Source: Clostridia bacterium
GTDB lineage: Bacteria > Bacillota > Clostridia > Oscillospirales > Acutalibacteraceae
Length of the DNA stretch: 64,000 nt
NCBI GenBank assembly: GCA_017441385.1
Contig: JAFRXY010000064.1
Coordinates: forward strand, 1 to 64,000
Reading direction: 5' to 3'
This document shows positions 11,137-56,360 of the stretch, one piece after another; positions within the stretch are counted from its first letter, which is position 1, and the number at the start of each line of letters is the position of its first letter. The position numbers were made by a program, and so were the translations under genes. The notes beneath the pieces are model-generated. The model was not told the origin of the DNA. It did no database searches and saw nothing but the letters and a program-made list of their open reading frames with translations.

Positions 11137-14100
11137 TTACTTTCCCTGCTCATTCTTTTCCTCTTCCTTCTGCTTCTTATGGATATTGTTGATATCCTCG
11201 GTGGTGCCGCCGCCGAAATCATCGGGGGCGCGGAATTTGCCCTTATCAACCAGCCGGAGGAACGCGTCCACCACGTCGCTCTGCAACTGCGTGCCGCGCA
11301 CTTCCTTGATGATGGAAACCGCCTTTTCGAAATTCATGCGCTTGCGGTAGGGACGGTTGGAATACATGGCGTCGAAGGTGTCGGCCACCGCGATGATCTG
11401 CGCCACACGCGGAATCTCGTCCCCTTTGAGTCCCTTCGGATACCCTCTGCCGTCGGGGCGTTCATGGTGGGAGCCTGCGCCTATGGCAAGCTCCGGCATA
11501 ATGCTGATGCCCTTGAGCGTATCATAACCCAGCGCCGCGTGCGACTTGATGGTCTTGAATTCCTCGTCGGTCAGCTTGCCCGGTTTGTTGAGCACCTCAG
11601 GAGGAATGCCCACCTTGCCTATATCGTGCAGAAGGGCGATATTGTAAAATTCATCCACCGTATCGTCATCATAGCCCAGTTCCTTCGCAAGCATGACGGT
11701 ATATTCCGCCACACGGGCAGAGTGGCCGTTGGTGTACTTATCCTTCATATCAATGACCTTGGAGAAGGCCTCCACGATCTCACGGATCAGCAGCTTCTGC
11801 TCTTTTTCCTTCTGGAGGAACTTTCTGGTCTTGCTGCGGGTGTATGCCATCACCACAATCAGCAGGAAAAGCAGTCCCATGCCGGCGCAGACAAGTCTGA
11901 ACCATGTTTCCTCATACATTGCCTTTTGCTTGACAATGTAGAAAGTAAGCGCTTCATCTTCCTTCAGGGAATCGCCAAGGCTGATATTGAATTGATACTT
12001 CCCGCCGCTGAGGTTGGTGTAGTCGATGGGCGCAAGATCACTGCGCTCTACGGTGGTTTCCTTAGCGTCGAAGCCATCAAGACGGTAGGTGATTTCAGGA
12101 TTGACGAGCGAATAGTTGAAGGCATAGCTGTAGATCGTCAGCTTTCTGGTGGAAGCCGGAACCGTAACCCTGTTGTTTTCGTCAAAGAAGATTCTTGTGC
12201 CGTCCGCTTCCACACACGGAACCGCCAGCTTGACGTTGCTGATGACCTCAAAACTCTTCTCAATATTGACCTTGGAAACGCCTGTGGTGCCAGCAATATA
12301 CAGATCGCCGTCGCTTGTAAGATCGCTGTAGGCGTTGGCGGTGGGTATATCAAACAAACCGTTATCTCTGCTGTAGTGAACGGGATTGATCTCCTCATTC
12401 TGAACCATTTCGTCGGAAGATACAACATATATTCCGTTGCTGCTGAGTATCCAGAGCTGATCCTGACTGTTCTGGTAGAGATCGAAATTATTCGAGTAGG
12501 GGAACTTTTTCACCGTGGTAGCCTGATAGTTTTCATCGAGATAGGCTATCGAATTGCTCGTCACAACCCAATACAGGTTTCTTTTCAAATCCTTCTTGAT
12601 TCGCATAACCACTTCGGAAAACAGTCCGGAATCCAGTCCGATATGAGCCGCGCTTCCGTCCCTTATCACGTAAATGCCGCCGCCGTCGGTGCCCGCGATA
12701 ATATCGCCCCAGAGACCTTCCGCTATTGTGAGGATTTCAGCATTGGCAATTCCGCTGGATTCACCGTAGACATCCGTCACAGTATCGCCGTCAATCACCG
12801 CGACGCCGCCTGTGCAGGCCACCGCGATCTTCCCGTCCTTCATCTCTATTACCGTTCGGACGCGGTCGGAAGGAAGTCCGTCGTCGGTCGAGAATCTTGT
12901 CACCGCACCGTCCTCATAGCGGAGCAGGGCATTCTCTCCGAATGTGGATATCCAAAGCCGGTTCCTGCTGTCGCGGACGATGGATCTGATTCTGCTTCCG
13001 CGGAGCATGTCAATTAAATCGGAGCCGCCGATTTCCCTGCCCGAAGCCGTCACGACCTTTGTCAGCGGCAGTCTGTCAATCGGGCCGAGCTCGCCTATTA
13101 CCGAAAGCCCGCTGCTTTTGCCGCCCACAAAAATCAAACCTTCATACTGACATGTCGCGTTGACAACGGTCTCCGACATGCCGTATTTTTCAAACAATTC
13201 AGAAAACGGATTGGAAACAATCTTCATAACGCCCTGCTTGGAAGAAGCCGCCCAGATATTGCCCTGATAGTCCGCAATCACGCCTTCCACCGAACCGTTC
13301 ACAGGCAGATTCAGCAATCTCGTGGATTTATCTCCCGAAACGATTGAAATGCCATTGTCTGCGCAAACCCAGAGATGATCGTCTATGGCGCTGATGGAAT
13401 TGACATAGTTCAACGGCGAAACGTCAACCGTCTTGACAATTTGCGGTTCCCCGCTGAAGTCAAGGCAGTAAACGTCACTCTGCGCCGTGCCGACATAGGC
13501 TTTTCCCGCATTGTCGGGATCGGGCAGAATCGTGCGTATCTCCGGAATGCCAAGTGAATCGGCGTCATAGAAACCGCTGAGTGCGCCGTCCTTCAGGGTG
13601 AAGATGGCGCCGTCATTTGTGACGCCGTAAATAACACCGTCATTCCCCATCAACATGGTGCGGATATATTCTTTATTGATTCTCTCATCATCGAACTGAC
13701 GAAGTTGATTTTCGCTGTCGATTTTGGCTATGCCTTCTGTTGTGCCAATGAAGACGGTTCCGTCGGTATCCTCTGCAATGGAACGCACGGAAGAAGATTT
13801 TAATCCTGACTGATGGTTGTAGAACACAAGATTGTCCTTTTCCATCATAGCCACGCCATTGTCATTGGTACCGATCCAAAGACGTTCCTTGCTGTCGACA
13901 AAAAGACTGACAACACTGGCTATGCCTGTGGTCGAGTCTATGCGTTCAAAGCTCCTGCCGTCGTAACGGGTAAGGCCGCTGTAGCTGCCTATCCAGATAA
14001 AGCCGTCCCGCGTTTCGACAATCGCGTTGGCCTCTGAGGTGGTAAGACCGTTTGTGTTGTCATAGAGCGCTGCGGAATACCCTTCGCCCTTGCCCGAAGG

Positions 14101-14235
14101 ATCAACGGTTGCCTGCTTTCCCGACGCGGCCATAGCGGTATTGGCCGCGGAAAAACTTCCGGACACCATGGAGGCAAAGAACATCGCCATAGCGACACTG
14201 ATGGAGACGCAAATCTTACATACTTTAGGTAACAA
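11137..14235 (-). CDS. Membrane sensor with beta-propeller repeats, Y_Y_Y domain and HD-GYP output
   Basis: Encodes 1032 residues. A signal peptide/anchor (about 8-36) is followed by a long extracytoplasmic region of Reg_prop two-bladed propeller repeats (for example NGLTTSEANAIVETRDGFIWIGS, LWIGTNDNGV, LWVCADNGI, LWISTFGENALL), a Y_Y_Y-like beta domain with YRLDGFD and YTNLSGGKYQFNI (about 690-770), a transmembrane helix (about 783-803), a short coiled coil, and an HD-GYP domain (about 825-985) with LLHDIGKVGIP and HHERPDGRGYPKGL. HD-GYP domains hydrolyse cyclic-di-GMP. This is the sensor architecture of hybrid two-component systems with phosphodiesterase in place of kinase. Start is TTG 14235 with SD GGGAGAGG. 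Transcribed alone between its own promoter and terminator. Confidence 0.9.
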   Translation of the reverse strand: MLPKVCKICVSISVAMAMFFASMVSGSFSAANTAMAASGKQATVDPSGKGEGYSAALYDNTNGLTTSEANAIVETRDGFIWIGSYSGLTRYDGRSFERIDSTTGIASVVSLFVDSKERLWIGTNDNGVAMMEKDNLVFYNHQSGLKSSSVRSIAEDTDGTVFIGTTEGIAKIDSENQLRQFDDERINKEYIRTMLMGNDGVIYGVTNDGAIFTLKDGALSGFYDADSLGIPEIRTILPDPDNAGKAYVGTAQSDVYCLDFSGEPQIVKTVDVSPLNYVNSISAIDDHLWVCADNGISIVSGDKSTRLLNLPVNGSVEGVIADYQGNIWAASSKQGVMKIVSNPFSELFEKYGMSETVVNATCQYEGLIFVGGKSSGLSVIGELGPIDRLPLTKVVTASGREIGGSDLIDMLRGSRIRSIVRDSRNRLWISTFGENALLRYEDGAVTRFSTDDGLPSDRVRTVIEMKDGKIAVACTGGVAVIDGDTVTDVYGESSGIANAEILTIAEGLWGDIIAGTDGGGIYVIRDGSAAHIGLDSGLFSEVVMRIKKDLKRNLYWVVTSNSIAYLDENYQATTVKKFPYSNNFDLYQNSQDQLWILSSNGIYVVSSDEMVQNEEINPVHYSRDNGLFDIPTANAYSDLTSDGDLYIAGTTGVSKVNIEKSFEVISNVKLAVPCVEADGTRIFFDENNRVTVPASTRKLTIYSYAFNYSLVNPEITYRLDGFDAKETTVERSDLAPIDYTNLSGGKYQFNISLGDSLKEDEALTFYIVKQKAMYEETWFRLVCAGMGLLFLLIVVMAYTRSKTRKFLQKEKEQKLLIREIVEAFSKVIDMKDKYTNGHSARVAEYTVMLAKELGYDDDTVDEFYNIALLHDIGKVGIPPEVLNKPGKLTDEEFKTIKSHAALGYDTLKGISIMPELAIGAGSHHERPDGRGYPKGLKGDEIPRVAQIIAVADTFDAMYSNRPYRKRMNFEKAVSIIKEVRGTQLQSDVVDAFLRLVDKGKFRAPDDFGGGTTEDINNIHKKQKEEEKNEQGK

Positions 14236-14305: not shown

Positions 14306-14335
14306 ATTATATCATACACCTACAAATGATTTCAA
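14306..14335 (-). promoter_or_regulatory. Promoter of the HD-GYP sensor gene
   Basis: Minus strand TTGAAA (14335-14330), 18-base spacer, TATAAT (14311-14306), about 70 bases before the TTG start. Confidence 0.65.
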
Positions 14336-14398: not shown

Positions 14399-14436
14399 AA
14401 AAAGCCGCAGGTCACATGTTACTGAGCCTGCAGCGG
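14397..14436 (-). terminator. Probable terminator of the first pilus operon
   Basis: Minus strand CCGCTGCAGG ... CCTGCGG hairpin with a 3-base bulge, followed by seven T. It overlaps the last codons and stop (14414-14412) of the pseudo-sortase gene. Confidence 0.55.
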
Positions 14437-15011
14437 ATAATGACATATTTTGAAGTATTTCTCGATCTGGCAAACAATGTCAGATCGTCTTCGCCTGATG
14501 TGATAGAATCCGTGCTTTCAGCATGATTCACCATCGTGACTTCATACCGGAAGATCCGTCCGTAAAGATCAGTGAAGATGACTGTATGCCCGATTTCAAT
14601 GGTATCCGCGAAGTCAAACTGTCCGTCACGGCTGTCACCGCCGATAATCAGATCGCGGTTGTAAATATTGCCTGCATACGTCATAGGGAAACGGCCGGCA
14701 TTCTTTTCATTCCACCCGGAACCTACCGGCAATGTACGGCCGAATTGCTCTATCTCCAGCAGACCGACAAAATTCTCGCCGCCGATCTCAGCGCTGGGCA
14801 TATCATGGCCGTAATGCGCTTCGGGAAGAGCCCTTTTTTGCGGCGGAATCATGGCATTCATCGCGCTGACAATCTGCTCAGCCGACTGCTTTTTACTTAA
14901 ATCAGCCTTGGCGATCACTATCCCGACCGCACCCGCTAGCAGCAGGACGCCGACCGCGATCGCCAGGCTGTTCAGGATCTTTCTTGTGTCAGATCTGCGT
15001 TTATCAGTCAT
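14412..15011 (-). CDS. Sortase-fold protein lacking catalytic His and Cys (pseudo-sortase)
   Basis: Encodes 199 residues: basic N-terminus, one membrane helix (about 14-34), then a domain collinear with sortase barrels: FVGLLEIEQFGRTLPV resembles the GxIxIPxIxLxLPV strand, DLIIGGDSR the usual VIAGHR, IEIGHTVIFTDLYGRIFRYEV the DxIxLTDxxGxxYxYxV strands, DDLTLFARS the LTLVTC strand and YVIIRC the catalytic-Arg strand. The essential His is Asp116, the nucleophile Cys is Arg162, while Arg173 remains. It cannot work as a transpeptidase in the usual way. It starts at ATG 15011, overlapping the VPKTG pilin stop by 8 bases, so it is translationally coupled and last in the pilus operon. It could bind sorting signals or regulate assembly; that is inference. 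Confidence 0.75.
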   Translation of the reverse strand: MTDKRRSDTRKILNSLAIAVGVLLLAGAVGIVIAKADLSKKQSAEQIVSAMNAMIPPQKRALPEAHYGHDMPSAEIGGENFVGLLEIEQFGRTLPVGSGWNEKNAGRFPMTYAGNIYNRDLIIGGDSRDGQFDFADTIEIGHTVIFTDLYGRIFRYEVTMVNHAESTDSITSGEDDLTLFARSRNTSKYVIIRCRLSNM

Positions 15012-16119
15012 GTGCTCTTCTTCTCGATACGACACCCAGCACGACCAGCATTGCGCCGGAAACGGAGAGCAGCACCACAGGAATCCACGGGAATTCCTCG
15101 CCTGTCTTCGGCACCGGAGAGGGAGGCGGAACAATATGGTATTCCAGAATCCAGCCGTGATCCACGGTCTGAACGGTCAGGGTGTAATGATCAACATCAC
15201 TGCCGATGACATTCCAAACCGTGCCGTCATCCTTGGTCGTCCACTCATAGTGCCAGTTCATATCGGAAGAGATAGTGACATCAGAGGGAACTTCCTCAGC
15301 GGGAGCTGTAGCAGGAATTTCCTCAGCGGGAGCTTCTTCTGTGCCCGAAAGCAGTCTGACTGCGGAATTGAGCGCGGCCATACCGAATGTCAAGGCTCTG
15401 GGTGTGCCTTCGGCAACGCTGCTGACAGAGGTCTTGATGACCTTCACTTCGTCGCCGGTCGGGCCGCCGGTGTGGGAAACATGAGCCACTACGCTGTCCG
15501 GGCGGTAATTTTCATAGCCCTTGTCGTCCCAGACAACATTGATGAAATAGGTGACGTCTTTGTATGTGGGAACAATGATCTCGGATTTCGGATTGGTTTC
15601 AACAGAATAAACCCATTCGCCTTCCTCCACTGTGGGAAGCGTGGCAATGACGCTGGAAAATGTTCTGTCGTCATTTTCGCAGACCAGCACCACCTGAGGA
15701 ATGAAATACCAGCCGGGGGTCAGGCCGCTGAATTCCGCCTTGCAATGATTGGCTCCAAGGGTGAATTCGCCTGCCGCGGCGGGGGAATTGGCTTTGACAA
15801 ACGCATCAAGCGTATCCGCCACAACTTCCCACTGATCGGATGAGTCGAGATTGGACAGATCAAGACCGCAGGAAGCAAACTCATCTGTCAGCACAAAATC
15901 GTAGTCGGAAGTGAGATCGGCGACGCGGTAGAGCTGAATCGCCGTGTCCTCGAAGGTGGTGTCCTCCGCGTTATAAACAACGGTCAGTTTGTTTGTCTTC
16001 GTGGAATCAAAAGCTCCATTCGCCTGATCTGTCGATGCAGCAAACGCTTTGAACGGAACGGTAAACACCATTGCCATTGCCACCAACGAGACCGTTACCA
16101 GAGAAAAAATCTTTTTCAT
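15004..16119 (-). CDS. Minor/basal pilin with VPKTG sorting signal
   Basis: Encodes 371 residues. A Sec signal peptide (1-27, ending AFAA) precedes a beta-rich part of SpaA/Cna-B type with FSGLTPGWYFIPQVVLV and a second part with YFINVVWDDKGYENYRPDSV and HYTLTVQTVDHGW. The C-terminus has a VPKTGEE sorting signal, a hydrophobic helix and an RRRAHD tail. A Ser/Pro/Glu/Ala-rich stretch with APAEEIPATAPAEEVP lies between domains. It begins in an ATGA overlap with the class C sortase gene (16119-16116), implying translational coupling. Position after the sortase and the atypical motif suggest the pilus base subunit linked to the wall, but a side-chain pilin is also possible. Confidence 0.82.
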   Translation of the reverse strand: MKKIFSLVTVSLVAMAMVFTVPFKAFAASTDQANGAFDSTKTNKLTVVYNAEDTTFEDTAIQLYRVADLTSDYDFVLTDEFASCGLDLSNLDSSDQWEVVADTLDAFVKANSPAAAGEFTLGANHCKAEFSGLTPGWYFIPQVVLVCENDDRTFSSVIATLPTVEEGEWVYSVETNPKSEIIVPTYKDVTYFINVVWDDKGYENYRPDSVVAHVSHTGGPTGDEVKVIKTSVSSVAEGTPRALTFGMAALNSAVRLLSGTEEAPAEEIPATAPAEEVPSDVTISSDMNWHYEWTTKDDGTVWNVIGSDVDHYTLTVQTVDHGWILEYHIVPPPSPVPKTGEEFPWIPVVLLSVSGAMLVVLGVVSRRRAHD

Positions 16120-16985
16120 TCCAGTTCGTCCTCCTCTAAGTTTACAAAATTTTTCAGATTGAATTTCTTCTTGACGGGTTTGAAAACTACTATTACAATG
16201 AGCACAAAGATGATCGGCATTGCAACCACGGGCGTGACGATAACGCGGTCCACCAGATACGCGTCCGATGTAATGTAAATCTCTCTGTGTCTGATTGTTT
16301 CGATTCGTGTGCCCTGAACCAGCAGTCTGTGCGTGTTGATGCCGTAGGGGGTACAGGTTACCAGTGTGCAGTAATCCTCACCCTTCACAATCTGCACATC
16401 GCTGATATCGTCAGGAAGCACAATTTTCACCTGAACAACTTCATATGTCAGTTCCTCACCTAAGACATTAATGACGAAGCTGTCGCCCACCTGCATTTTA
16501 TCGAGGTTCGTAAAAAGCTTAGCGTGGGGAAGTCCACGGTGCGCCATGATGACGGAGTGCGTGCTTTCACCGCCAACCGGAAGGCTGGAGCCTTCGAAAT
16601 GCCCGCAGGCTATGTTCAGCACAGCGTCGTCCGCGCCGTGATAGATCGGAATTTCCAGCTGAAGCTTGTCGATGGAAATGTATCCCATAATGCCGTTGCC
16701 GCCTATGTTGCAAGCGGCTTTATACTGTTTGTCGAGTTTCTTGTACTCCCCCAGAGGAAAGGTCAGCTTGGCGAGCTTTTTGTTGTAGGCGTTTGCTTTT
16801 TCCCACTCGGCGGAGTAATCTTCCTCTGACATATCCTTGATCAGTCTCTCATAGTCTACTACAGCCTTTGACTGTACTTTGGAATTCCAGTATTGACTGA
16901 GAGCCGGGTATAACAGCACGGAGAGACCTATGAAAAACACGATCAGCAATATTAATGTGAAGATTCTATTGGTCGTTTGCTTCAT
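16116..16985 (-). CDS. Class C (pilus-polymerising) sortase
   Basis: Encodes 289 residues with N-terminal (about 7-27) and C-terminal (about 246-270) membrane helices, the class C layout. Catalytic residues are present: His in VIMAHRG, Cys in CTLVTCTPYG, Arg in THRLLVQGT. IMGYISIDKLQLEIPIYHG is the substrate-groove strand. It would join pilins by isopeptide bonds between the LPxTG threonine and a pilin lysine. The lid motif DP(F/W/Y) usual upstream of the barrel is not recognisable; TFPLGEY occupies that region. ATG 16985 is chosen for its SD GGGAG; the upstream ATGs lack one. It sits between the major pilin and the VPKTG pilin it probably polymerises. Confidence 0.93.
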   Translation of the reverse strand: MKQTTNRIFTLILLIVFFIGLSVLLYPALSQYWNSKVQSKAVVDYERLIKDMSEEDYSAEWEKANAYNKKLAKLTFPLGEYKKLDKQYKAACNIGGNGIMGYISIDKLQLEIPIYHGADDAVLNIACGHFEGSSLPVGGESTHSVIMAHRGLPHAKLFTNLDKMQVGDSFVINVLGEELTYEVVQVKIVLPDDISDVQIVKGEDYCTLVTCTPYGINTHRLLVQGTRIETIRHREIYITSDAYLVDRVIVTPVVAMPIIFVLIVIVVFKPVKKKFNLKNFVNLEEDELE

Positions 16986-17116
16986 GTGTATCTCCCTGAC
17001 GTTATGCCGCATCATCATTCAAAGAAGCGGGAGGGAAAGCGGGAACGTGCTTTCCCTCTCGTCCAGTGAATTGAATTATGAATTGTCAAATAGTGTCCTT
17101 ACATAGACTCCTGAAA

Positions 17117-18523
17117 TCAGAACTCTTCCTTAGCGATTCTCTTGTTGGTGACCATGAAGACACCGGCAGCGAGAATAGCGAAAATGCCGAATGCGTAGAA
17201 GAGTGTGGTGCCCATAGCGCCTGTTGCAGGAAGAGCGGTACCGGTCTTGTTTTCAACCTCAACAACGGTTGTGTTGTCAGCAGCGACACTGTTGACTGCC
17301 ACATCCTCTGTGAGCTTGTTGTAACCGGCGGGAGCCTCGGTTTCCTTAAGAGCGTAGGCGGCATCGCTGTCAACACCGGTGATCACAATATTGCCGGCAG
17401 CGACTGTTACGAATTCCTCAACACCTGTCTCGCCTGTGTATGCTACACGGTACTCGGTGTCGCTTACCTTGACAAGGCTGACAACCGCGTTGTCCTTGAG
17501 AAGCTGGAAGCTTGCGTCGGCGAGGATTGTCTTGGTTTCACCCTGCTTGAAGAACTTGAAGACTCCAAAAGAGTTGGTCTTCACTGTGACTTCATCTTCA
17601 GCGGTCTGCTTGGAATAGGTCATCTTGACGGCGTTCTTGATGTCGGCGCCTGCAACAGCCTTTGCGTTGACGGTTGCGTCATAGGTGATAACAAGTGTGC
17701 CGTTCTCGTCAAGAGCCTTGACCTTTGCGGCTGCAACGGTGAATGTGATCTTCTGGCCGTCAACAGCAACCTTGACTTCATCTTCCTTGGCAGCGCTGCC
17801 GTCCACCTTGACGGTACCCTCGGTGAAGGTCAGAGCATCGTCCATTGTGTCGACCAGAACGATGGCCTTGTCAGTGCCTTTGCCGTCGGTAACGGTAATC
17901 TGGAAGGAAACAGTGTCGCCGATCTGAGCATACTGGCTGTCCGCCCAGTTGGTGCCGTTGTCAGCAACCTTCTTCTCCACTGTGGGAGCGGTGTTCTTTT
18001 CCTTGATGGTAGCGGTGGGATGTGTGGTATCAATTGCGCAGAGTGCGCCGAGAGTTGTATTTACGAAATAGTAGCCGGGCTCTGTCAGAGCAAGTTCAAG
18101 AGCGCCGTCGGCTGTGCTGTCCTTGGAAGCGGCAGCGGTCATAGCGGTCTTGTCTGCTTTATAGAGAAGGGTGGCAAAAGCCGCAGCGTCGAAAGAATCG
18201 GTCTTCTCGACATTCCATACGCCGGCAGTTGTGGTCTTTGTGAACTTCAGACCGTTTGCTTCGAAAGAAGCGGCAGTCTTGTCATTGGCTGAGGTAACAA
18301 GTGCCCACCACTCACTGCTGTCCGAAATGGTGTATGCATGGGGATCTTCCTCATTGCTGCCCGCATAGGCAACATCAAAGACTTTGTAAGCGGCGTAGGT
18401 CTCGCCCTTTTTGGAGTTGTCTACCGTGATCTTGTATTCATCAGCTGCAAAAGCTGTGAATCCGCTCACTGCAAACGCCATAAGAGCGACGAGCAGAACA
18501 GAGAGAATCTTTTTTGTCTTCAT
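17117..18523 (-). CDS. Major pilin (SpaH/EbpB-like, LPATG anchor)
   Basis: Encodes 468 residues: signal peptide (1-26, ending AFAA), an N-terminal domain with YAAYKVFD, a central isopeptide-type domain beginning at TVEKKVADNGTNW (the Lys pair is the candidate pilin-motif lysine), a third Cna-B-like domain with FGVFKFFKQGETKT and the E-box YALKETEAPAGYN, then LPATGAMG, membrane helix and KRIAKEEF tail. These are the parts of sortase-assembled backbone pilins. ATG 18523 is preferred over ATG 18532 because the AAGGAG SD is too close to the latter. It follows the tip adhesin and precedes the class C sortase, the usual tip-backbone-sortase order. Confidence 0.93.
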   Translation of the reverse strand: MKTKKILSVLLVALMAFAVSGFTAFAADEYKITVDNSKKGETYAAYKVFDVAYAGSNEEDPHAYTISDSSEWWALVTSANDKTAASFEANGLKFTKTTTAGVWNVEKTDSFDAAAFATLLYKADKTAMTAAASKDSTADGALELALTEPGYYFVNTTLGALCAIDTTHPTATIKEKNTAPTVEKKVADNGTNWADSQYAQIGDTVSFQITVTDGKGTDKAIVLVDTMDDALTFTEGTVKVDGSAAKEDEVKVAVDGQKITFTVAAAKVKALDENGTLVITYDATVNAKAVAGADIKNAVKMTYSKQTAEDEVTVKTNSFGVFKFFKQGETKTILADASFQLLKDNAVVSLVKVSDTEYRVAYTGETGVEEFVTVAAGNIVITGVDSDAAYALKETEAPAGYNKLTEDVAVNSVAADNTTVVEVENKTGTALPATGAMGTTLFYAFGIFAILAAGVFMVTNKRIAKEEF

Positions 18524-18603
18524 TTTTTCCATTTCTCCTTTAACTTATGATAAAAATATTGTGAATTAACATTTCGCGCAATCAGCCGAATCAGTATCGT
18601 TCC

Positions 18604-21600
18604 CTAAAATACATTGATCAGACTGCGTTTACGCTTAATGCTCAATCCTATCATAATCGGAGTTGTCATGAGTGACAGACCGACTATAAACCAGTTTTTA
18701 ACTCCGGAACCGCCCGTAGAGGGAAGCTCTATGCCAGAGGTGGAATGCAGATAGAATTCAGGAGAATCATCGCTGAATGAGTGGCTGCTGAGCTTGGGCA
18801 GCTTGCCGTCGGAATGGTTGTCATTGCAGTCAACCCACGCAAAGCGCACGAAATTCGTTATGGACTTGCCGTCAGCACTGATTGCGTCTACATTGACAGC
18901 AACGTCTGTTGCCTTGAACGTATAGTTGTCGTCAATCACGGCAGTATCTTTGAAGAGTACAAAGTGCATCGCGAGTTTGCTGAGGTCGTAAGTCGGCGTG
19001 CCGGATACGGCAGGAGCCCCTGTCCAATCGCCGACGCCGTCCGGCACCCAGTCCGTCTTATCGACGTTGTACTTCATGGCGCATGCGTTGTTATATCTGA
19101 TTCCGAATACCTCGCGCTTATCCTTGAAGGTAATCTCAGGAACCACGACATAGACTTTGGCGCTGACATTGTAACCGCTCCAACTGCCGGCGGGGCTCTT
19201 CTTCCTCATCTGAATCTTGATAGCATGGCTGGCTGTCTCGGTAGATTTAGTGGCTTCTTCGGAATCAATAAAATCGGGAAGCTCAATATTGTATTCGGTA
19301 TTGCCGATGACATAATAGTCTCCGCTCTTTGCAGCGTTTGCCTTGATGAACTCAACATACTTGGCGAGCTTTGTCCAGAGTTCATTGGTCAGTCCTTCAT
19401 TGCTGAAGTAAAGTTCCTCGGCGGTCAGTTTTGTGCCATAGTAAACGGTTTTCTTTGCACCATAGGCTTCACCTGTAAAGGGAACGTCCGTATCAGGCAC
19501 TTCAAATGTGCCGATCTGCTCACCGTTGAGGTAAACGCCGGAATTGTCCTTGTTGGTAGGAACATCATAGCCGCCGATGAAATCTTCTTTCGGCTTGACA
19601 GGAACCTCAATGACAATCTTCTTGCCAGAATGCGCGGTATAGGTTTCGCCTTGCTTGATGGCGCCGCACCAGTTGGCGGAATAATCAAAGCCCTTCACGG
19701 ACATCTTTCCATCGTTAAAGGCGACTTCCGCGTCGAACTCTTTCTTGGTGCTTTCATCAAACACAGGCTCGGTTCCGTTCACCGCATTGCTGTCAACAGT
19801 GTAAACCTTGACATCGCTTTCGTTCGCGCCCTCGGGGAACTCAAAGTAATCGGAAACAGCGTCAATAACGGTGGTGTTTTCCTTCAGCTCGGTATTCTGG
19901 GAACCGCCGGTCTGAACAGCCTCAGCTATTGTTTCAAATGCCTCAATCAAAGCGGAGGCACTGGAAGCCGACATATAGTAACGCGTGTCAACCTGCGAAC
20001 CGCTTGAATTGTAGTTGCTGCTCAGATGATGCATGAAGTAGTTGGCATAAGGAGCGGAAGCACTTTCGCTGCCAAGCGATGAAGGCTCCTCAGACCACGG
20101 TTTGCCCTCGGCAGTAGGCCAAGGTTTACAAATGGTGGGGTCAGTCAGGGAGGAAGCGTTCGCGCCGGCAAAGACACCTATAGTATAGATAGTAGCTTTG
20201 TACGTGGACTTAATAGTTTTTGCTTTCTTCAAAGCATCGTTAGCGTTTGCACTGGAGCATTCCATATCGTCAGCGGTGGAGTAACTACGATTGTACCAGC
20301 CGCCATTATTTGCGTTTCCGGGAACACCGTCTGTGAATACAACAACAAGGCGATTTCTTGTGGAATCACTGTTATTTTTGAAAATATTTTCAGCCATTTC
20401 CATGCCTTCGTTAACGTAGGTCTTACCGCCATGTCCGATTTTTCCACTGGCAGTCAGGGCAGCCTCTCTGTGGTTGCTATTTGTCATATCATAAAACGCG
20501 TTTTGATAATCTGAGGTAGTCAGATTGGTCATTTTCTTTGCCGTTTGCGGTTTGGACGGCAGGAATATGCCAGTGTTGTCAACGTCATGACTCGAAAAAC
20601 CAACGATAGCGACTCTGTGAGCAACGTCGTCTTCTGTTCCTAATTTTTTGTCAGGACCCAAAGCACTTGTTTCAATCGTATTGATAAATCCGTTAACAGC
20701 ATCACGCAGAATACGATACTTCTCTCTATCATTCATTTTATCCTGCATTGAACCCGACTGGTCGAGAACCAGAATGATATCCGTCGCGGCAACAGAAGTA
20801 TGAATCTCAATAGAACCGGAACCCTTTGCGAACGCCTCAAGCGTAATGGTGTAATAACCGTCGGCGTTGGGCGTGTCGGAAACCGTCTTTTTGAGCTGCA
20901 TCGGATTTTCAGACTCGGACTTCACCATCTTGGGGTTCAGAAGACCTGCTCTGCGGATAACGGTCTTGGAATCATACTCCGGCAGATCACAGGCTTCTTC
21001 TCCCATTTCCTCCGCCTGCGTCTCCTCGGTTTCCTCGGCGGCGGTTGTTTCTTCCGTGGTTGCCGTTTCGGAAGGCTCCGTCGCGGTGGTTTCCGTTTCG
21101 CTCGCTTCGGTCACTGTTGTTTCAGCTTCAGAAGTCTGCGCTTGGGTAGCGGTTGTTTCTTCGAGCTTGGTTTCCGCGATGGTTTCCTCGATGGTTGTCT
21201 TGACTTCATCGAAGGCAGAAGCAACGGTGGTCGGATTTTCCGGCTCGATTACCTTTTCTTCCTTCGGCTCTTCCTTGGGGAAGCATGCCTTGGTGTGCTT
21301 GTGTTCTTCCTTACCGCAAATCAGCACAGAGTCGACCCTGTAACATTCATCTGTATGAACGTGGTCAGGATCTGTGTTTTCGCAGACCAGAACAGATCTT
21401 CTCTCGTAGCAATCATTGGTATGAGTATGCTCCTCAATACCGCAGATAGCGTCGGGGCTAGACTCCAGCGTAATTGCCGGCAAAATAAGTGCGTAGGTTG
21501 TGCAAAAGACGGTAATGAATCCGAGCACCGCGACAACCTTCTGCCATGTCTTATACCTGCGGTGGCTGTCGTAGATCTTCTCAATTATCGTCTGAACTTC

Positions 21601-21609
21601 TTTCAGCAT
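18604..21609 (-). CDS. vWA-domain pilus tip adhesin (LPSTG anchor)
   Basis: Encodes 1001 residues. A basic N-terminus and a membrane segment containing TTYALILPAIT (about 25-47) are followed by three C-x(n)-H-x-H-x3-C units (Cys56-His61/63-Cys67, Cys76-His83/85-Cys89, Cys98-His103/105-Cys109), a Thr/Glu-rich linker (about 120-210), and a von Willebrand A domain starting at ATDIILVLDQSGSM with MIDAS residues Asp283, Ser285 and Ser287 and later VVFTDGVPG. Beta domains follow, then LPSTGGSG, a membrane helix and a KRKRS tail. Such proteins cap pili and bind host or glycan ligands. The SD GGGAGG precedes ATG 21609. A pilus signal peptidase is encoded directly upstream. Confidence 0.92.
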   Translation of the reverse strand: MLKEVQTIIEKIYDSHRRYKTWQKVVAVLGFITVFCTTYALILPAITLESSPDAICGIEEHTHTNDCYERRSVLVCENTDPDHVHTDECYRVDSVLICGKEEHKHTKACFPKEEPKEEKVIEPENPTTVASAFDEVKTTIEETIAETKLEETTATQAQTSEAETTVTEASETETTATEPSETATTEETTAAEETEETQAEEMGEEACDLPEYDSKTVIRRAGLLNPKMVKSESENPMQLKKTVSDTPNADGYYTITLEAFAKGSGSIEIHTSVAATDIILVLDQSGSMQDKMNDREKYRILRDAVNGFINTIETSALGPDKKLGTEDDVAHRVAIVGFSSHDVDNTGIFLPSKPQTAKKMTNLTTSDYQNAFYDMTNSNHREAALTASGKIGHGGKTYVNEGMEMAENIFKNNSDSTRNRLVVVFTDGVPGNANNGGWYNRSYSTADDMECSSANANDALKKAKTIKSTYKATIYTIGVFAGANASSLTDPTICKPWPTAEGKPWSEEPSSLGSESASAPYANYFMHHLSSNYNSSGSQVDTRYYMSASSASALIEAFETIAEAVQTGGSQNTELKENTTVIDAVSDYFEFPEGANESDVKVYTVDSNAVNGTEPVFDESTKKEFDAEVAFNDGKMSVKGFDYSANWCGAIKQGETYTAHSGKKIVIEVPVKPKEDFIGGYDVPTNKDNSGVYLNGEQIGTFEVPDTDVPFTGEAYGAKKTVYYGTKLTAEELYFSNEGLTNELWTKLAKYVEFIKANAAKSGDYYVIGNTEYNIELPDFIDSEEATKSTETASHAIKIQMRKKSPAGSWSGYNVSAKVYVVVPEITFKDKREVFGIRYNNACAMKYNVDKTDWVPDGVGDWTGAPAVSGTPTYDLSKLAMHFVLFKDTAVIDDNYTFKATDVAVNVDAISADGKSITNFVRFAWVDCNDNHSDGKLPKLSSHSFSDDSPEFYLHSTSGIELPSTGGSGVKNWFIVGLSLMTTPIMIGLSIKRKRSLINVF

Positions 21610-21669: not shown

Positions 21670-22593
21670 TTATTTCTCCACCCCTATGTGCTTCGGCGGC
21701 CAGACGGTGAAAAGAATCTTTCCCACAATTTCATCCCGCGAAACGCATCCGATGGAGGACGAACGGGAATCGATCGACGTCAGCCGGTGGTCGCCTACCA
21801 TGAAGTAGCTTCCCTCCGGCACACGGAAGGGTAACTCTATATCGCACTCGCCTTTTGCCTTTTCCTTTATATAAGGCTCGTCGATCATCTTTCCGTTGAC
21901 TGAAATATTTCCGTCATCATCAATCATAATGACGTCGAGCGGCTTGCCTATTACCCTCTTGACCAGAATCCGGTTGGAATAATAGAAACTGCATATGTCG
22001 CCGTAATCATAGGAGCTTGTCTTGACAGAAACCACAATGTCGCCCTCGTAAAGGGTCGGCGTCATGGAATTGCCGTATATCTGAAGCACCGGCAGCAGCA
22101 GGGTCGCTATCAATGCGGCCGCGGCTGCGGTGACGATCAGCGCATAAACTGTACTGCGAAGGAGTCCGCTGTATCTGTGTCTGAATTTCTCCCGCCGAAG
22201 TTCGTTTTCGATCGCCTCGGTGGTGAAATCGCCGTCCTCGACCATTTCCGCGACGGATTTCTTCTCCGTCCGGGCTGCGTTTTCTTCCGGAGATTGCTCC
22301 GGCGGCGCTTTGTTGAGCAGCCTGCTCTTCCACGCGCCCGCTTTGTAACGGATGGATCGCATCGGTCTGGAATCCCAGATCCTTGCGGCGCAATGACGTA
22401 TCGCTATGGCGAATTTCGTCTTGGTGAAGGCTTTCCAGCCTTCGGAAATCATGGCGCTGAACGACTTCCAGCCCTTGGCAACCGCGCGGCTGAATGACTT
22501 CCAGCCTGTGGCGCACCGGGCGCTGAAGGAACGCCACGCCTTCTTTGATTTATCTGTGAGACTTTGAAGACCGCTTTTCAATTTTTCTTTCAT
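21670..22593 (-). CDS. lepB: Signal peptidase I with an 11-residue-repeat N-terminal extension
   Basis: Encodes 307 residues, much longer than the usual 170-200. Residues 1-140 are cytoplasmic: Trp20, Trp31, Trp42 and Trp53 recur every 11 residues in units like GWKSFSRAVAK and GWKSFSAMISE, a hendecad pattern, then an acidic linker. One membrane helix (about 150-172) leads to the S26 catalytic domain with Ser in YGNSMTPTL, Lys in VKRVIGKP and box E GDHRLTSIDSR, so the enzyme looks active. It would cut signal peptides of the pilins encoded downstream. The start overlaps the coiled-coil gene by 44 bases, a strong sign of co-expression. The repeats could form an amphipathic membrane-lying helix; that is inference. 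Confidence 0.92.
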   Translation of the reverse strand: MKEKLKSGLQSLTDKSKKAWRSFSARCATGWKSFSRAVAKGWKSFSAMISEGWKAFTKTKFAIAIRHCAARIWDSRPMRSIRYKAGAWKSRLLNKAPPEQSPEENAARTEKKSVAEMVEDGDFTTEAIENELRREKFRHRYSGLLRSTVYALIVTAAAAALIATLLLPVLQIYGNSMTPTLYEGDIVVSVKTSSYDYGDICSFYYSNRILVKRVIGKPLDVIMIDDDGNISVNGKMIDEPYIKEKAKGECDIELPFRVPEGSYFMVGDHRLTSIDSRSSSIGCVSRDEIVGKILFTVWPPKHIGVEK

Positions 22594-27551: not shown

Positions 27552-28259
27552 TTAACTGGCCAGCTGAGTATTGTAAATATTATCAGGGGTATCGACCGCC
27601 TGCGCCATGTAGGCGTAGAAAGACAGCGCATTTGTGCTTTCCAATTGACTGGTAACGTCGAAGCTGTTGCTGATTGTGATCTTGTTTCCTTCCAGAATGG
27701 GTACATTGAGGGTACCGCCTTCTGTATTGCTGTCGGAAATGGGTGTTCCGTTCCTGTATACGTACACCGTGCCGCCGTGCTTTCCGTTCACATTAAGCTC
27801 ATTCCAGTCGGAGGTGAGCGAATAGGTGAAGGTGCCGCTCATGCCTGTGCCATCTACCACTTCCACATACAGATAGGCGGGAATGGCGGTCTTGCCGGTC
27901 ACAAGGACGAAGGGATCCTTCGGGATGTCTACCCCCGGCATGAGAATATACCGATTGCCTGTCGTCTCATCCCCTCCCAGCGAATACACGCCGGAATCCT
28001 GCCTTGTCGCGGCGTGTTCCTTGATTGCAAGACCCGCGGCGAGATTGGCGTTGACGGTGATTGTGGCCGGCACCTGTGTGACAGGGCGTCTTTGCTTGTA
28101 ATTCGCGCTGGCGCCGGAAAAGGCGATGGCCGTCATTCCCGCCAGCACGGCTGTCAGGGAAAGCGCCAGTACCGCCATGATGAATAATCCTCCGGACTTT
28201 CTTCTTTCTGTTCTTTCATTTCTTTCTTCTCTTTCTTCTATTTTCTCCATGCCGTTCAA
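27552..28259 (-). CDS. Secreted protein with SipW-type signal
   Basis: Encodes 235 residues. A strongly charged cytoplasmic leader (EKIEEREERNERTERRK) and hydrophobic segment (about 27-46) lead to FSGASANYKQ, similar to the A-x-Y/F cleavage region of SipW substrates. The mature part is beta-rich with VNANLAAGL, YLYVEVVDGTG, GTVYVYRNGTPI and ends ALSFYAYMAQAVD, resembling TasA-like export partners. No anchor is seen. The start is probably TTG 28259 (SD GAGGGGG about 9 bases upstream, overlapping the upstream stop), alternatively ATG 28250. It lies 14 bases after the TQID protein gene, within one transcript. Confidence 0.7.
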   Translation of the reverse strand: MNGMEKIEEREERNERTERRKSGGLFIMAVLALSLTAVLAGMTAIAFSGASANYKQRRPVTQVPATITVNANLAAGLAIKEHAATRQDSGVYSLGGDETTGNRYILMPGVDIPKDPFVLVTGKTAIPAYLYVEVVDGTGMSGTFTYSLTSDWNELNVNGKHGGTVYVYRNGTPISDSNTEGGTLNVPILEGNKITISNSFDVTSQLESTNALSFYAYMAQAVDTPDNIYNTQLAS

Positions 28260-28273
28260 AATGTCTCGCCCCC

Positions 28274-28825
28274 TCAGTCGATCTGTGTGAATGTAACGTA
28301 TGTTTCAAAACCGAAGTTGTCAGAGTATTCTCCTTCGGTTAGCGCTGCCATCTGCGCCTGAGCAAATGCCGGGGCATCTTTGACCTTGATTTCCAAGGTG
28401 CAGCTTTCTGTTCCTCCCGGCGCAAGCTGACCGGCATTTTCCCATTTCATTGTGTCTGTAAAGATGCCTGCGTTCAATCTTGCCGTGAAATACTGTCCCA
28501 TGTTGTTCTTGAAGCTGATTTCAACGGTGTAGCTTACCTTCACTTCGGAAGTATTGGTAATCACAATCTGATAGGTGGTTACATCGCCGGCGGTAACGCT
28601 CTTGATGCTCTGCCGCAAACCTTCTGTGGTATTGCCGTTCGCGTCCACACTGAACACGGCGACTTTCGCGCCTCCTCTGCCCGCGCCCGCCGTCGCATAA
28701 TTGGCAAAAACGCCTGAAATGACGTGGGACGACAGCATGACCGCCATGAGCATGACGGCCAATAGGCGAAATACCGCAACATGCCGCGCTTTTGTTGTTT
28801 GAATCTCTGCATTGCTTTTCCGCAT
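28274..28825 (-). CDS. Small secreted protein with SipW-type signal, C-terminal TQID
   Basis: Encodes 183 residues: hydrophobic signal (about 18-38) ending VISGVFANYATAG, then a beta-sandwich-like body with a partner-type pattern (TYQIVITNTSEVKVSYTVEI) and the end VTFTQID. The same VISGTFANY and TQID elements occur in two other proteins of the operon (30697-31461 and 31523-32317), so these are likely paralogues exported and assembled alike. SD AGGTGA is spaced 7 bases from ATG 28825. It directly follows the SipW-type peptidase gene that probably processes it. A TasA/CalY-like fibre subunit or minor component is the best guess. Confidence 0.75.
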   Translation of the reverse strand: MRKSNAEIQTTKARHVAVFRLLAVMLMAVMLSSHVISGVFANYATAGAGRGGAKVAVFSVDANGNTTEGLRQSIKSVTAGDVTTYQIVITNTSEVKVSYTVEISFKNNMGQYFTARLNAGIFTDTMKWENAGQLAPGGTESCTLEIKVKDAPAFAQAQMAALTEGEYSDNFGFETYVTFTQID

Positions 28826-28886
28826 ATGAATCTCACCTGCTTTGGTTGATTAATTCATGATAAAATGACTCGTCAAGCGAATGTTT

Positions 28887-29501
28887 TCACTCTTCCGAGG
28901 ATTCATTCTTTCCGGAACCGCCGGCATTTTCAGCTTCGGCGGCTGCCTGAAGGCGGCGTATCTCCGCCTTGATGGCTTCCAGCTCCCGGTCGCCTTCGCG
29001 CTTCTCACTGCGGAAGGAAAGTTCCAGCAGCAGCAGCGCAGCGCCGATCACGGTTATCACTCCGTAGGGACTCTGCAAAAAGCCCACCAGAACGCCCGCT
29101 TTCGGCACCTTGCCCACGACCCTGCCCGAAATGTCGGAGAGGGAGACAGGCTCGTCGGGGGCGTTGTTCGCGTCGCCCTGCGTGACCACGGAATTGCCGT
29201 TCTTCGTCACAATCCGGTGGACGACCGATCTTCCCATGCCGCTGTAGACCACGATATCTCCCACTTCATAATCCCCGGCTCTGCGGACGATGATGAGATC
29301 GTCCACGCTCAGCGCAGGTTCCATGCTGCCCGAAAGCACCACGCCCGCGCCGATTCCGAAGGGCATGGCTGGCTGCTGACTGCCGAATGCCGACGCGTTC
29401 AAAAAATAGATGCACAATCCCAGCAGCAAGCCGGCAAATACGATAATCAGCACCCGGAAGGGCGATACTGCGACACGCTTTTTTTCTTGATTATTCTGCA
29501 T
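28887..29501 (-). CDS. sipW: SipW/ER-type signal peptidase I
   Basis: Encodes 204 residues. Membrane helix at about 15-35, then the ER-type catalytic core with Ser59 in LSGSMEPAL and His95 in VVHRIV replacing the bacterial Lys, GDIVVYSGMG and TQGDANNAPDEPV. A second membrane helix (about 148-165) and a charged Glu/Arg/Ala coiled tail follow. In Bacillus, SipW processes TasA and TapA. Here it sits among five candidate substrates. Its ATG shares the A of the upstream TAA (TAATG at 29503-29499), so it is coupled to the IPPTG protein gene. Confidence 0.93.
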   Translation of the reverse strand: MQNNQEKKRVAVSPFRVLIIVFAGLLLGLCIYFLNASAFGSQQPAMPFGIGAGVVLSGSMEPALSVDDLIIVRRAGDYEVGDIVVYSGMGRSVVHRIVTKNGNSVVTQGDANNAPDEPVSLSDISGRVVGKVPKAGVLVGFLQSPYGVITVIGAALLLLELSFRSEKREGDRELEAIKAEIRRLQAAAEAENAGGSGKNESSEE

Positions 29502-30394
29502 TATTCGCTATCCTTGTCATGTTCTTCGTCGTTGTCTTCCGCCGCTATCCTTGCAAGATATTCCTGTGCCGGCGTGAGTCTTTTTCTGTCCTTTGCCAAG
29601 ACCGCAAGGAAGACAAAGAGCGAGAGTATCATCAGCGTCATCCACAGGGTGATATTGAAATCGTCGCCTGTCGGGGGAATTCCGCCGGGGGCGTCGGGAT
29701 TTTCGTCTTCCTCCGCGTAAACGATAAAGCGTATGGTCAGCACCAGATCCTGATCGACGGCCATATTGCCGAGCATGGTGTCAAAAGCGTCGGCCGCTTC
29801 CAGTTCTTCGCCCGAAGCGCTTTCAAAGGGCCAGCGCCAGTCAAGCTTGAAACTGTCCATATAGCCGCCGGAAAGCACGCCCTTGTACTTGAGTCCGTCG
29901 AAAGTGAGCACCGGAACAAAATTCCCTTCCGCGCCGGTCATCCATTTGTTGTCGGGACCTTTCATGCGCCCCAGCACCGGAAGTGTGAGATCGGTTCCCC
30001 TGACAAAAGCCTCCACTCTGAGCGTGTAATCCATCGCTACGCTGCGCATGTTGCGCAGGGTCAGATCATAGCTCCAATCCGAACCGGGGGCAATCAGCTT
30101 GTCGCCGTCGCATGTCTCAACGGCGTATTCTCCTGTTTCGTCATAGGACACTTTGAATATATCCACTTCATCGAGAATGACAACGCCTTTTTCATTCACG
30201 CTTTCCTCCTGCGCCTGACTGCTGACGGAATGATCGTTGTCCCGGTCGATATCAATGTAATTTTTTTGCTCCTTCTTGGTGAAGAATCCCAAACAGCTTG
30301 CCAGAATGGCTGCTGTCAGCAGTCCCAATAAAAGCAGTATCAATAAGATGATAGCCAGCCGCTTCTTTTTGTTGTTCTGATTGTCATTGCTCAT
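29501..30394 (-). CDS. Membrane-anchored surface protein with IPPTG motif
   Basis: Encodes 297 residues. An N-terminal signal-anchor-like helix (about 13-36) is followed by an extracytoplasmic beta-rich domain with YAVETCDGDKLIAPGSDWSY, LRVEAFVRGTDL and FKLDWRWPFE, then PGGIPPTGDD, a hydrophobic helix and an AKDRKR tail. The IPPTG arrangement resembles a sortase signal, although the following residues are acidic. It may anchor the SipW-exported proteins or act as a TapA-like assembly factor, judged only from neighbours. I chose ATG 30394 because GGGAGAG lies upstream; an upstream in-frame extension lacks a ribosome binding site and reads through a Lys/Gln repeat. Confidence 0.75.
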   Translation of the reverse strand: MSNDNQNNKKKRLAIILLILLLLGLLTAAILASCLGFFTKKEQKNYIDIDRDNDHSVSSQAQEESVNEKGVVILDEVDIFKVSYDETGEYAVETCDGDKLIAPGSDWSYDLTLRNMRSVAMDYTLRVEAFVRGTDLTLPVLGRMKGPDNKWMTGAEGNFVPVLTFDGLKYKGVLSGGYMDSFKLDWRWPFESASGEELEAADAFDTMLGNMAVDQDLVLTIRFIVYAEEDENPDAPGGIPPTGDDFNITLWMTLMILSLFVFLAVLAKDRKRLTPAQEYLARIAAEDNDEEHDKDSE

Positions 30395-30696
30395 TGCTCT
30401 CACTCTCCCGATTGAATGGTGCTTTTGCTTTTGCTTTTGCAAACATCGTAAAGCCGTGGAAGACAAACGCCCTTCCGCCGCTTGCGAAAACAAAAGATAT
30501 TCCCGTTCCCTGCCCCTGCTCCTTGTTACAGGAGCAGGGAACGAAATGCCGATTTTATTTGAAAAAAATTGAAAAAATTGAAAAATTAGAATAATTGAAA
30601 ACGTAATTTTGTGGAATATCCCGCACGCCGCGCCGCCTGGGAACGACGTGCGGGAATGAATGGTTCAATTGACTTGATTGACGCTATAAGACGCAA
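30395..30696. other. Gene-free interval with two hairpins inside the SipW/TasA-like cluster
   Basis: Two inverted repeats: TCCCGCACG/CGTGCGGGA (30619-30655) and CCCTGCTCCT/AGGAGCAGGG (30514-30539, extended by GTTCCC/GGGAAC). Between them lies an A-rich stretch that reads as T-rich on the minus strand, so the first could partly terminate transcription after the 30697 gene and the rest could hold a second promoter. No clear -35/-10 pair is seen. Confidence 0.5.
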
Positions 30697-55652: not shown

Positions 55653-56360
55653 TCAAGATCCAATAATCTTCGCAAAGACAAGGAGCCTGTCTTCCGAGGA
55701 TGTGTCAGCACAGGTGGTAAGGGCTACCAGCCTTCCTTCCGGCTCGGCAATCAGGACATCCGCGCGGGAAACGATCTGTCCCGCGGCCTTCGCACCGTTA
55801 TCGGGGTCAAAAAAGATCCTGTCCCTGGCGTCGGCACGCATCGCGGCAATGAATTCCAACTGAAGCCTGCGTGCTCCGTCCCGCCCAAGATAAAGCGTGC
55901 CGCGGGAATGGGCACGCAGGTACTTCTCATCGAGAAAGTCGTCCAGCGCGCCGAACATGCGCCCGAACTCAATGTGATGCCCGTAAATCAGCGAATAGCC
56001 GTCGCTGAAATCGGGATTGCAGCGGCTGTCCAGAAAAATGCTTCCCGACATGGAGTAATTCCCGTACGGGTCACGGTTCAGAAAGACATAATTGTCCTCC
56101 CCCTGCATCAGGGGATAATCAATGTTGGTTCCCTCAACGGTCAGCCAGCCGATCTGTTCATCCGTAATCGGCGAAACGCTTGCCGTCTCTGCTTCTCCCG
56201 GTTTGTAGTTCCGAAGGGAGGCGTCAGACGCGTCCGAAAGAATCCACGCACTGTCCCATAGAGAATAGACCGCCAGCAGCACCATGGCGGCAAACACCGC
56301 TATCAGGAATATGTCGTGCAGCCCGTTCAGCATTTTCCAGACTTTTTGCATTCTCTGCAT
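55653..56360 (-). CDS. Class B sortase (pilus-type, SrtB/SrtC1-like)
   Basis: Encodes 235 residues. One N-terminal membrane helix (about 15-37), the groove strand GWLTVEGTNIDYPLMQGEDN, the class B block SIFLDSRCNPDFSDGYSLIYGHH with catalytic His, ALTTCADTS with Cys and EDRLLVFAKI with Arg. Class B sortases usually anchor haem proteins, but in streptococcal FCT loci a class B enzyme polymerises the pilus. The neighbours here (FctA-like pilin, SipA-like protein, Cna-B adhesin) argue for the latter. It lies 27 bases after the FctA-like gene. Confidence 0.93.
   Translation of the reverse strand: MQRMQKVWKMLNGLHDIFLIAVFAAMVLLAVYSLWDSAWILSDASDASLRNYKPGEAETASVSPITDEQIGWLTVEGTNIDYPLMQGEDNYVFLNRDPYGNYSMSGSIFLDSRCNPDFSDGYSLIYGHHIEFGRMFGALDDFLDEKYLRAHSRGTLYLGRDGARRLQLEFIAAMRADARDRIFFDPDNGAKAAGQIVSRADVLIAEPEGRLVALTTCADTSSEDRLLVFAKIIGS

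Follow-up and report, generated by a model that had tools for sequence, protein, structure and literature searches.

The gene at positions 14412-15011 (-) of the 64,000-nucleotide stretch analysed here (the window) encodes a sortase-like protein from which, judged by alignment, all three catalytic residues of a sortase are absent. Sortases are enzymes that attach surface proteins to the cell wall. The protein, here called the pseudo-sortase, is the product of the last gene of a pilus operon and has orthologues with the same losses in about 30 species, which together make up a pseudoenzyme branch of the sortases. From the genomic comparison we infer a role in pilus assembly or anchoring, most probably directed at the base pilin encoded by the adjoining gene.

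The gene, its operon and the predicted fold

The open reading frame of 199 codons is intact from ATG to stop, and its first 8 bp overlap the end of the base pilin gene, stop codon included, exactly as in the original prediction, which had also described the gene as intact. On the - strand the gene set begins with a signal peptidase-like gene (21670-22593), homologues of which are found in most related loci, and continues with a VWA-domain tip pilin carrying the signal LPSTGGSG (18604-21609), the major (shaft) pilin with LPATGAMGT (17117-18532), a class C, or pilus-polymerising, sortase of 300 residues with intact catalytic residues (16116-17018; NF033745, E=2e-79), the base pilin of 371 residues (15004-16119) and the pseudo-sortase. 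A terminator hairpin (14404-14434, -; -17.7 kcal/mol, z -3.66) covers the last pseudo-sortase codons including the stop and is followed by U7. Hairpin and U7 terminate the operon, and the pseudo-sortase gene closes it, as had been predicted. The open reading frame on the + strand at 14523-14900 is antisense to the pseudo-sortase gene and was taken as spurious. Between the terminator and the next gene, which encodes a two-component-propeller/HD-domain protein (11137-14235), lies a strong promoter-like site (14306-14335, -; TTGAAA-18-TATAAT, 11/12, with TG before the -10 element).

The base pilin is modelled with two CnaB-like domains and ends in VPKTGEE (15094-15114, -), a transmembrane (TM) segment and RRR; this sorting signal is of the general xPxTG[DE] type and not of the LPQTGxxWWPVP type. 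Its model matches sortase-dependent pilins, including the basal pilins PilB and EbpB and the minor pilin GBS52, at low TM-scores, and the predicted structure supports the view that the neighbour of the pseudo-sortase is a pilin.

In the pseudo-sortase an N-terminal membrane helix (residues about 9-35) and a linker helix precede the sortase beta-barrel. By sequence the protein is recognisable only as a distant member of the sortase superfamily, with Pfam PF04203 (Sortase) matching at E=3e-4 and 20.9 bits, below the curated cut-off of 26.6. Searching PDB sequences by phmmer with the single protein gave no match, and a 26-row profile of the dead clade (the pseudo-sortase and its orthologues) matched sortases weakly, at a best E of 0.005; the fold assignment therefore rests on structure comparison together with the family alignment. 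The AlphaFold2 model, built from nine related sequences, has a mean pLDDT of 77.8, with a barrel domain at about 85-92 behind one membrane helix, and its best 50 Foldseek matches in the PDB are all sortases (E 5.5e-8, probability 1.00). The model thus has the eight-stranded beta-barrel of sortases, in line with the sortase fold originally claimed, and not an unrelated fold.

As an enzyme the protein belongs to no sortase class, because the catalytic residues on which such an assignment depends are lacking. The class C model NF033745 gave no match to the window's pseudo-sortase at E<=1, with weak matches in 4 of the 26 dead-clade members, and the class D models (NF033746 or NF058671) reached 22 bits against a cut-off of 140. 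With class C sortases it shares the barrel and the pilus operon, but it has neither the catalytic residues nor a C-terminal TM segment, and an intact class C enzyme is already encoded elsewhere in the operon. The pseudo-sortase does fall within a family of base-pilin sortases: its gene comes last in the operon, behind those of the class C sortase and the base pilin, and the protein is monophyletic with the active members.

Lost catalytic residues in a conserved clade

The catalytic columns were read from an alignment of 26 dead proteins, 42 active relatives (active sisters) and two class C sortases. His, Cys and Arg are each present in 42/42 active sisters, while 0/26 dead proteins have any of them. 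The catalytic His column of the window protein is occupied by D126 (codon 14634-14636, -), within GGDSR at residues 124-128, the Cys column by R182 (14466-14468, -), within TLFAR at residues 178-182, and the Arg column by Y189 (14445-14447, -). The original prediction was right on the absence of His and Cys and wrong on the numbering, having called the replacing residues Asp116 and Arg162. Its further claim of a retained catalytic Arg is rejected, since the aligned column is Y189; the Arg that was meant is R193, the Arg of 'IIRC', which occupies a separate position and is kept in 41/42 active relatives.

Within the dead clade the His column contains S in 14, T in 4 and A in 2 of the 26 proteins and single residues in the rest, the Cys column R (15), K (8), Q, P and I (one each; R/K 23/26), and the Arg column Y in all except one, which has F. 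Of the columns newly conserved in the clade, Q131 is invariant (26/26) where 38/42 active relatives have His, and D148 (26/26), F134 (23/26) and Y189 complete the set. Residues of the former peptide site are altered, TCT to A[RK]x and Arg to Tyr, with HNY lost. Together these columns show the predicted inactivity to be conserved throughout the clade. The consistent R/K182, Y189, Q131 and D148 could form a new site, and the barrel might then have become a different enzyme; we give this very little credence, as there is no invariant Ser, Thr, Cys or Lys nucleophile (Ser occupies the His column in only 14/26, and Q, P or I can occur at 182) and the invariant residues look structural or binding. 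One protein of the active group (L017:1468-2106, +, genome G038) has Tyr in place of His only, within AGYNY, with Cys and Arg intact, and adjoins a LPQTGQLWSPIP pilin. This is possibly a single independent loss, and otherwise no intermediates between active and dead proteins were seen.

Dead orthologues lacking all three residues amount to at least 32 distinct copies from about 30 species and span nine family codes (f1, f10, f16, f19, f20, f39, f40, f77 and f99). They adjoin PxTG pilins, and none has a Cys or His elsewhere in the fold. A genus-level alignment search gave eight related loci, all of them in assemblies from uncultured Clostridia/Ruminococcus, and several of these assemblies carry RUG isolate names. 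In a tree computed with the catalytic columns removed and rooted on class C sortases, the dead proteins (26/26) form one group (100/100, 100% bootstraps) on a stem of 1.55, nested among active sortases; additional dead members were found in the class outside the order. Pairwise dN/dS of the dead gene within the genus is about 0.11-0.30, compared with 0.04-0.08 for the class C sortase and 0.14-0.35 for the base pilin, several of the dS values in this comparison being near saturation. By these estimates the dead sortase is kept under purifying selection, consistent with the earlier claim of a pseudo-sortase retained in a pilus operon.

These values also bear on the reading of the gene as a decaying relic or a sequencing or assembly artefact, which we find barely conceivable. 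A dead-clade copy in genome G551 (L112:2998-3759, -) is frameshifted past the middle of the barrel, by decay or assembly error, and an active fused paralogue in the window's genome has shrunk to a fragment of 68-87 aa, both as such a reading would have it. A frame or assembly error behind the dead gene is nevertheless rejected because orthologues share the losses, and decay by the dN/dS values and the number of intact copies; the preserved translational overlap, the single clade with its long shared stem and the specific new conserved residues argue in the same direction, and for the clade as a whole the reading is refuted. Genome G891 has six family matches, of which four are nearly full length, and this suggests that it contains several pilus loci.

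Operon slot and base-pilin signal

In 40 genomic contexts a class C sortase gene is followed by the base pilin gene and then by either an active or a dead sortase gene, the order being alike in both groups. Active sisters share with the pseudo-sortase the fold, the length, the N-terminal TM segment and the place in the operon behind class C sortase and base pilin, as well as the motifs LPV, W, GS, FTD..G, YxV, LTLF and RC. They differ from it in having the catalytic His, Cys and Arg and in the signal of the partner pilin, which is LPQTGxxWWPVP instead of xPxTG[DE]. Short pilus sortases beside LPQTGxxWWPVP base pilins occur for example in L018, L021, L026, L072 and L085. The active sisters score far below the NCBIfam cut-offs for classes C, D, E and GN, and two of five tested exceed the general sortase cut-off (TIGR01076); by these scores they look like an unnamed sortase class.

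Base pilins in the dead slot have TG[DE] in 27/29 cases (VPKTGEE, PPKTGDT, PPHTGDS and others; 26/28 by script, plus L012 by eye). Beside active or fused sortases an acidic residue follows TG in 1/58 and a non-acidic one in 57/58, and WP or YP comes after TG in 52/58, typically as LPQTGQLWWPVP (LPQTGxxWWPVP type). The signal is associated with dead or active status at a Fisher p=1e-18, a value that is not corrected for phylogeny and is to be read as one event: since the dead group is one clade, the signal swap and the loss of catalysis represent roughly one evolutionary event, not 29. The correlation also holds in loci beyond the order. In L179 an active sortase follows a base pilin with IPQTGDN, so TGD by itself is no mark of inactivity. 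Four assignments differ from the automatic reading, namely L020 and L070 (both active), in which the regular expression caught a spurious upstream TG and the true signals are LPQTG-type, and L012 and L159, which the crude status expression left unassigned and which are dead by alignment or reading. In L020 and L022 (genomes G127 and G219) an extra ORF of about 108 aa, just upstream of the active sortase, separates it from the LPQTG base pilin; this ORF ends REEWYWPIPV or REGSWWPIPV followed by a TM segment, contains no TG, and resembles the tail of a truncated pilin in which the WWPVP part is kept.

Nine genomes of the window's genus have a second locus in which a single ORF runs from a CnaB-like pilin through a repeat linker, LPQTG[MV]LWWPVP and a membrane segment into an active sortase domain (L023 and L048-L055; for example L050:1444-3360, -), joining a substrate to its presumed sortase. 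The nine fusions form one clade in the tree. The fusion of pilin and sortase ties the family to the base pilin, as synteny does, directly for its active members and not for the dead ones. At the second pilus locus of the window's genome (G000, contig C63, L126:6479-7517, -) the class C sortase is kept and the active fused sortase is reduced to a C-terminal remnant (TCT...RVTVRC), the fragment mentioned above.

Searches at the chosen thresholds gave no active sister in most dead-carrying genomes outside the genus, and pairing with one is therefore an unlikely role for the dead protein; as a subunit of an active sister it is rejected on the same ground. Those genomes that have only the dead form do still have a class C sortase, and where the context of a dead-clade locus is readable, the class C gene is almost always just upstream. 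The pseudo-sortase might regulate the class C enzyme, by competing at the membrane for the sorting signals of pilins or by capping them; pilus length would be limited in this way and anchoring left untouched. A dead barrel could bind a sorting peptide and leave it uncleaved. We regard this as possible though unlikely: the clearest co-variation is with the base-pilin signal, active sisters that are fused are fused to the base pilin, and with the former peptide-site residues changed, enzyme-like peptide binding is not assured.

Anchoring of the base pilin and proposed role

Anchored proteins were sampled genome-wide with TIGR01167, counting only matches with a C-terminal TG, TM segment and basic tail, as weak matches also occur in control genomes. 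Other anchored proteins in the window's genome end in DTPATGES, SPGTGES, SPTTGES, APGTGEG and the like. Over this genome, other dead-carrying genomes and active ones, non-pilus anchors mostly have [TSPIV]PxTG[DE], and tip and shaft pilins mostly LPxTG[GA]. The base pilin of the dead operon thus shares the general type of signal. It could be anchored by a general sortase, as in pilus 2a of GBS, where the base pilin is anchored by the housekeeping sortase A (PMC3186789).

Three class B-type sortases are found in the window's genome (in L003, in L004 and at 55653-56360, -, in the window), of which the last, reading GHH...LTTC...R, is a candidate to anchor proteins with xPxTG[DE], the base pilin among them. 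Apart from the dead gene, genomes G348, G349 and G300 contain just two sortases, one of class C and one other, and in G348 and G300 the other reads as class B-type (GHN...LSTC). The class B sortase SrtB of Clostridioides difficile cleaves (S/P)PxTG (PMC5118464), and the motif type of its substrates (PMC5118464, PMC4155245) matches that of the dead-slot base pilins and the general anchors. SrtB is an active class B enzyme, and in the window's genome that role would be filled by other genes and not by the pseudo-sortase.

Three dead-slot base pilins (L058, L062 and L069) have lost or displaced the TG (L062 has none) and keep the TM segment and basic tail; these may not be sortase substrates at all. 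They fit a reading in which base pilins are not attached to peptidoglycan and the pseudo-sortase, together with the pilin TM segment, holds the pilus base non-covalently in the membrane. We consider membrane retention of this kind quite improbable, since 27/29 dead-slot base pilins have a proper xPxTG[DE] signal like the other anchored proteins of those genomes, and class B-type sortases are present.

The explanation that we prefer, and to which we assign somewhat better than an even chance, is that a former base-pilin anchoring sortase was kept as a non-catalytic base-pilin factor after anchoring had passed to a class B-type sortase. The ancestor would have been a small active sortase dedicated to a pilus base pilin with LPQTGxxWWPVP. 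In one clade all three catalytic residues were replaced together, and the base pilin in the slot carries xPxTG[DE]. The task of anchoring it to the wall would have been taken over by the general sortase of class B type on which the other xPxTG[DE] proteins depend. The old enzyme may then have remained in the membrane in a non-catalytic role, as a binding partner of the base pilin and perhaps also of the class C sortase. It would let the base pilin in as terminal subunit and present it for anchoring, a role comparable to that of SipA in streptococcal pili. SipA, of the FCT pilus operons of Streptococcus pyogenes, is a non-catalytic signal peptidase homologue needed for polymerisation (PMC4049620). 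Like the pseudo-sortase it is a homologue of an enzyme in a pilus operon, has its catalytic residues replaced and is kept by selection, and it has been proposed to be a peptide-binding assembly factor, which resembles the role suggested here. It differs in having the signal peptidase fold and not that of a sortase, and a need in polymerisation has been shown for SipA, whereas the role of the pseudo-sortase is deduced from genes.

In the open-access papers searched, the only inactive or pseudo-sortase was an engineered Cys-to-Ala mutant, and no conserved dead sortase was found. Pseudoenzymes are well known among kinases and proteases. We hold it about evenly balanced whether this is the first genuine pseudo-sortase family, in which catalysis was lost once, at the stem of the switch in substrate signal, and whose members now act by binding, putting the base pilin in place and bringing pilus growth to a close. 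To our knowledge the ending of sortase-built pilus growth is a step still poorly understood, and an active and a dead protein in one slot, with matched pilin signals and a fusion, allow the choice of the last pilin and the ending of growth to be asked about directly. If the proposal is true, recognition and catalysis would here be uncoupled in pili built by sortases. When annotation goes by 'sortase domain', dead proteins are also counted as anchoring enzymes.

A second surface cluster in the window (27552-30493, -) contains a signal peptidase (28887-29501) and two small secreted proteins of SipW/TasA-like appearance, and the protein encoded at 29501-30493 in this cluster ends in IPPTGDD and a TM segment.
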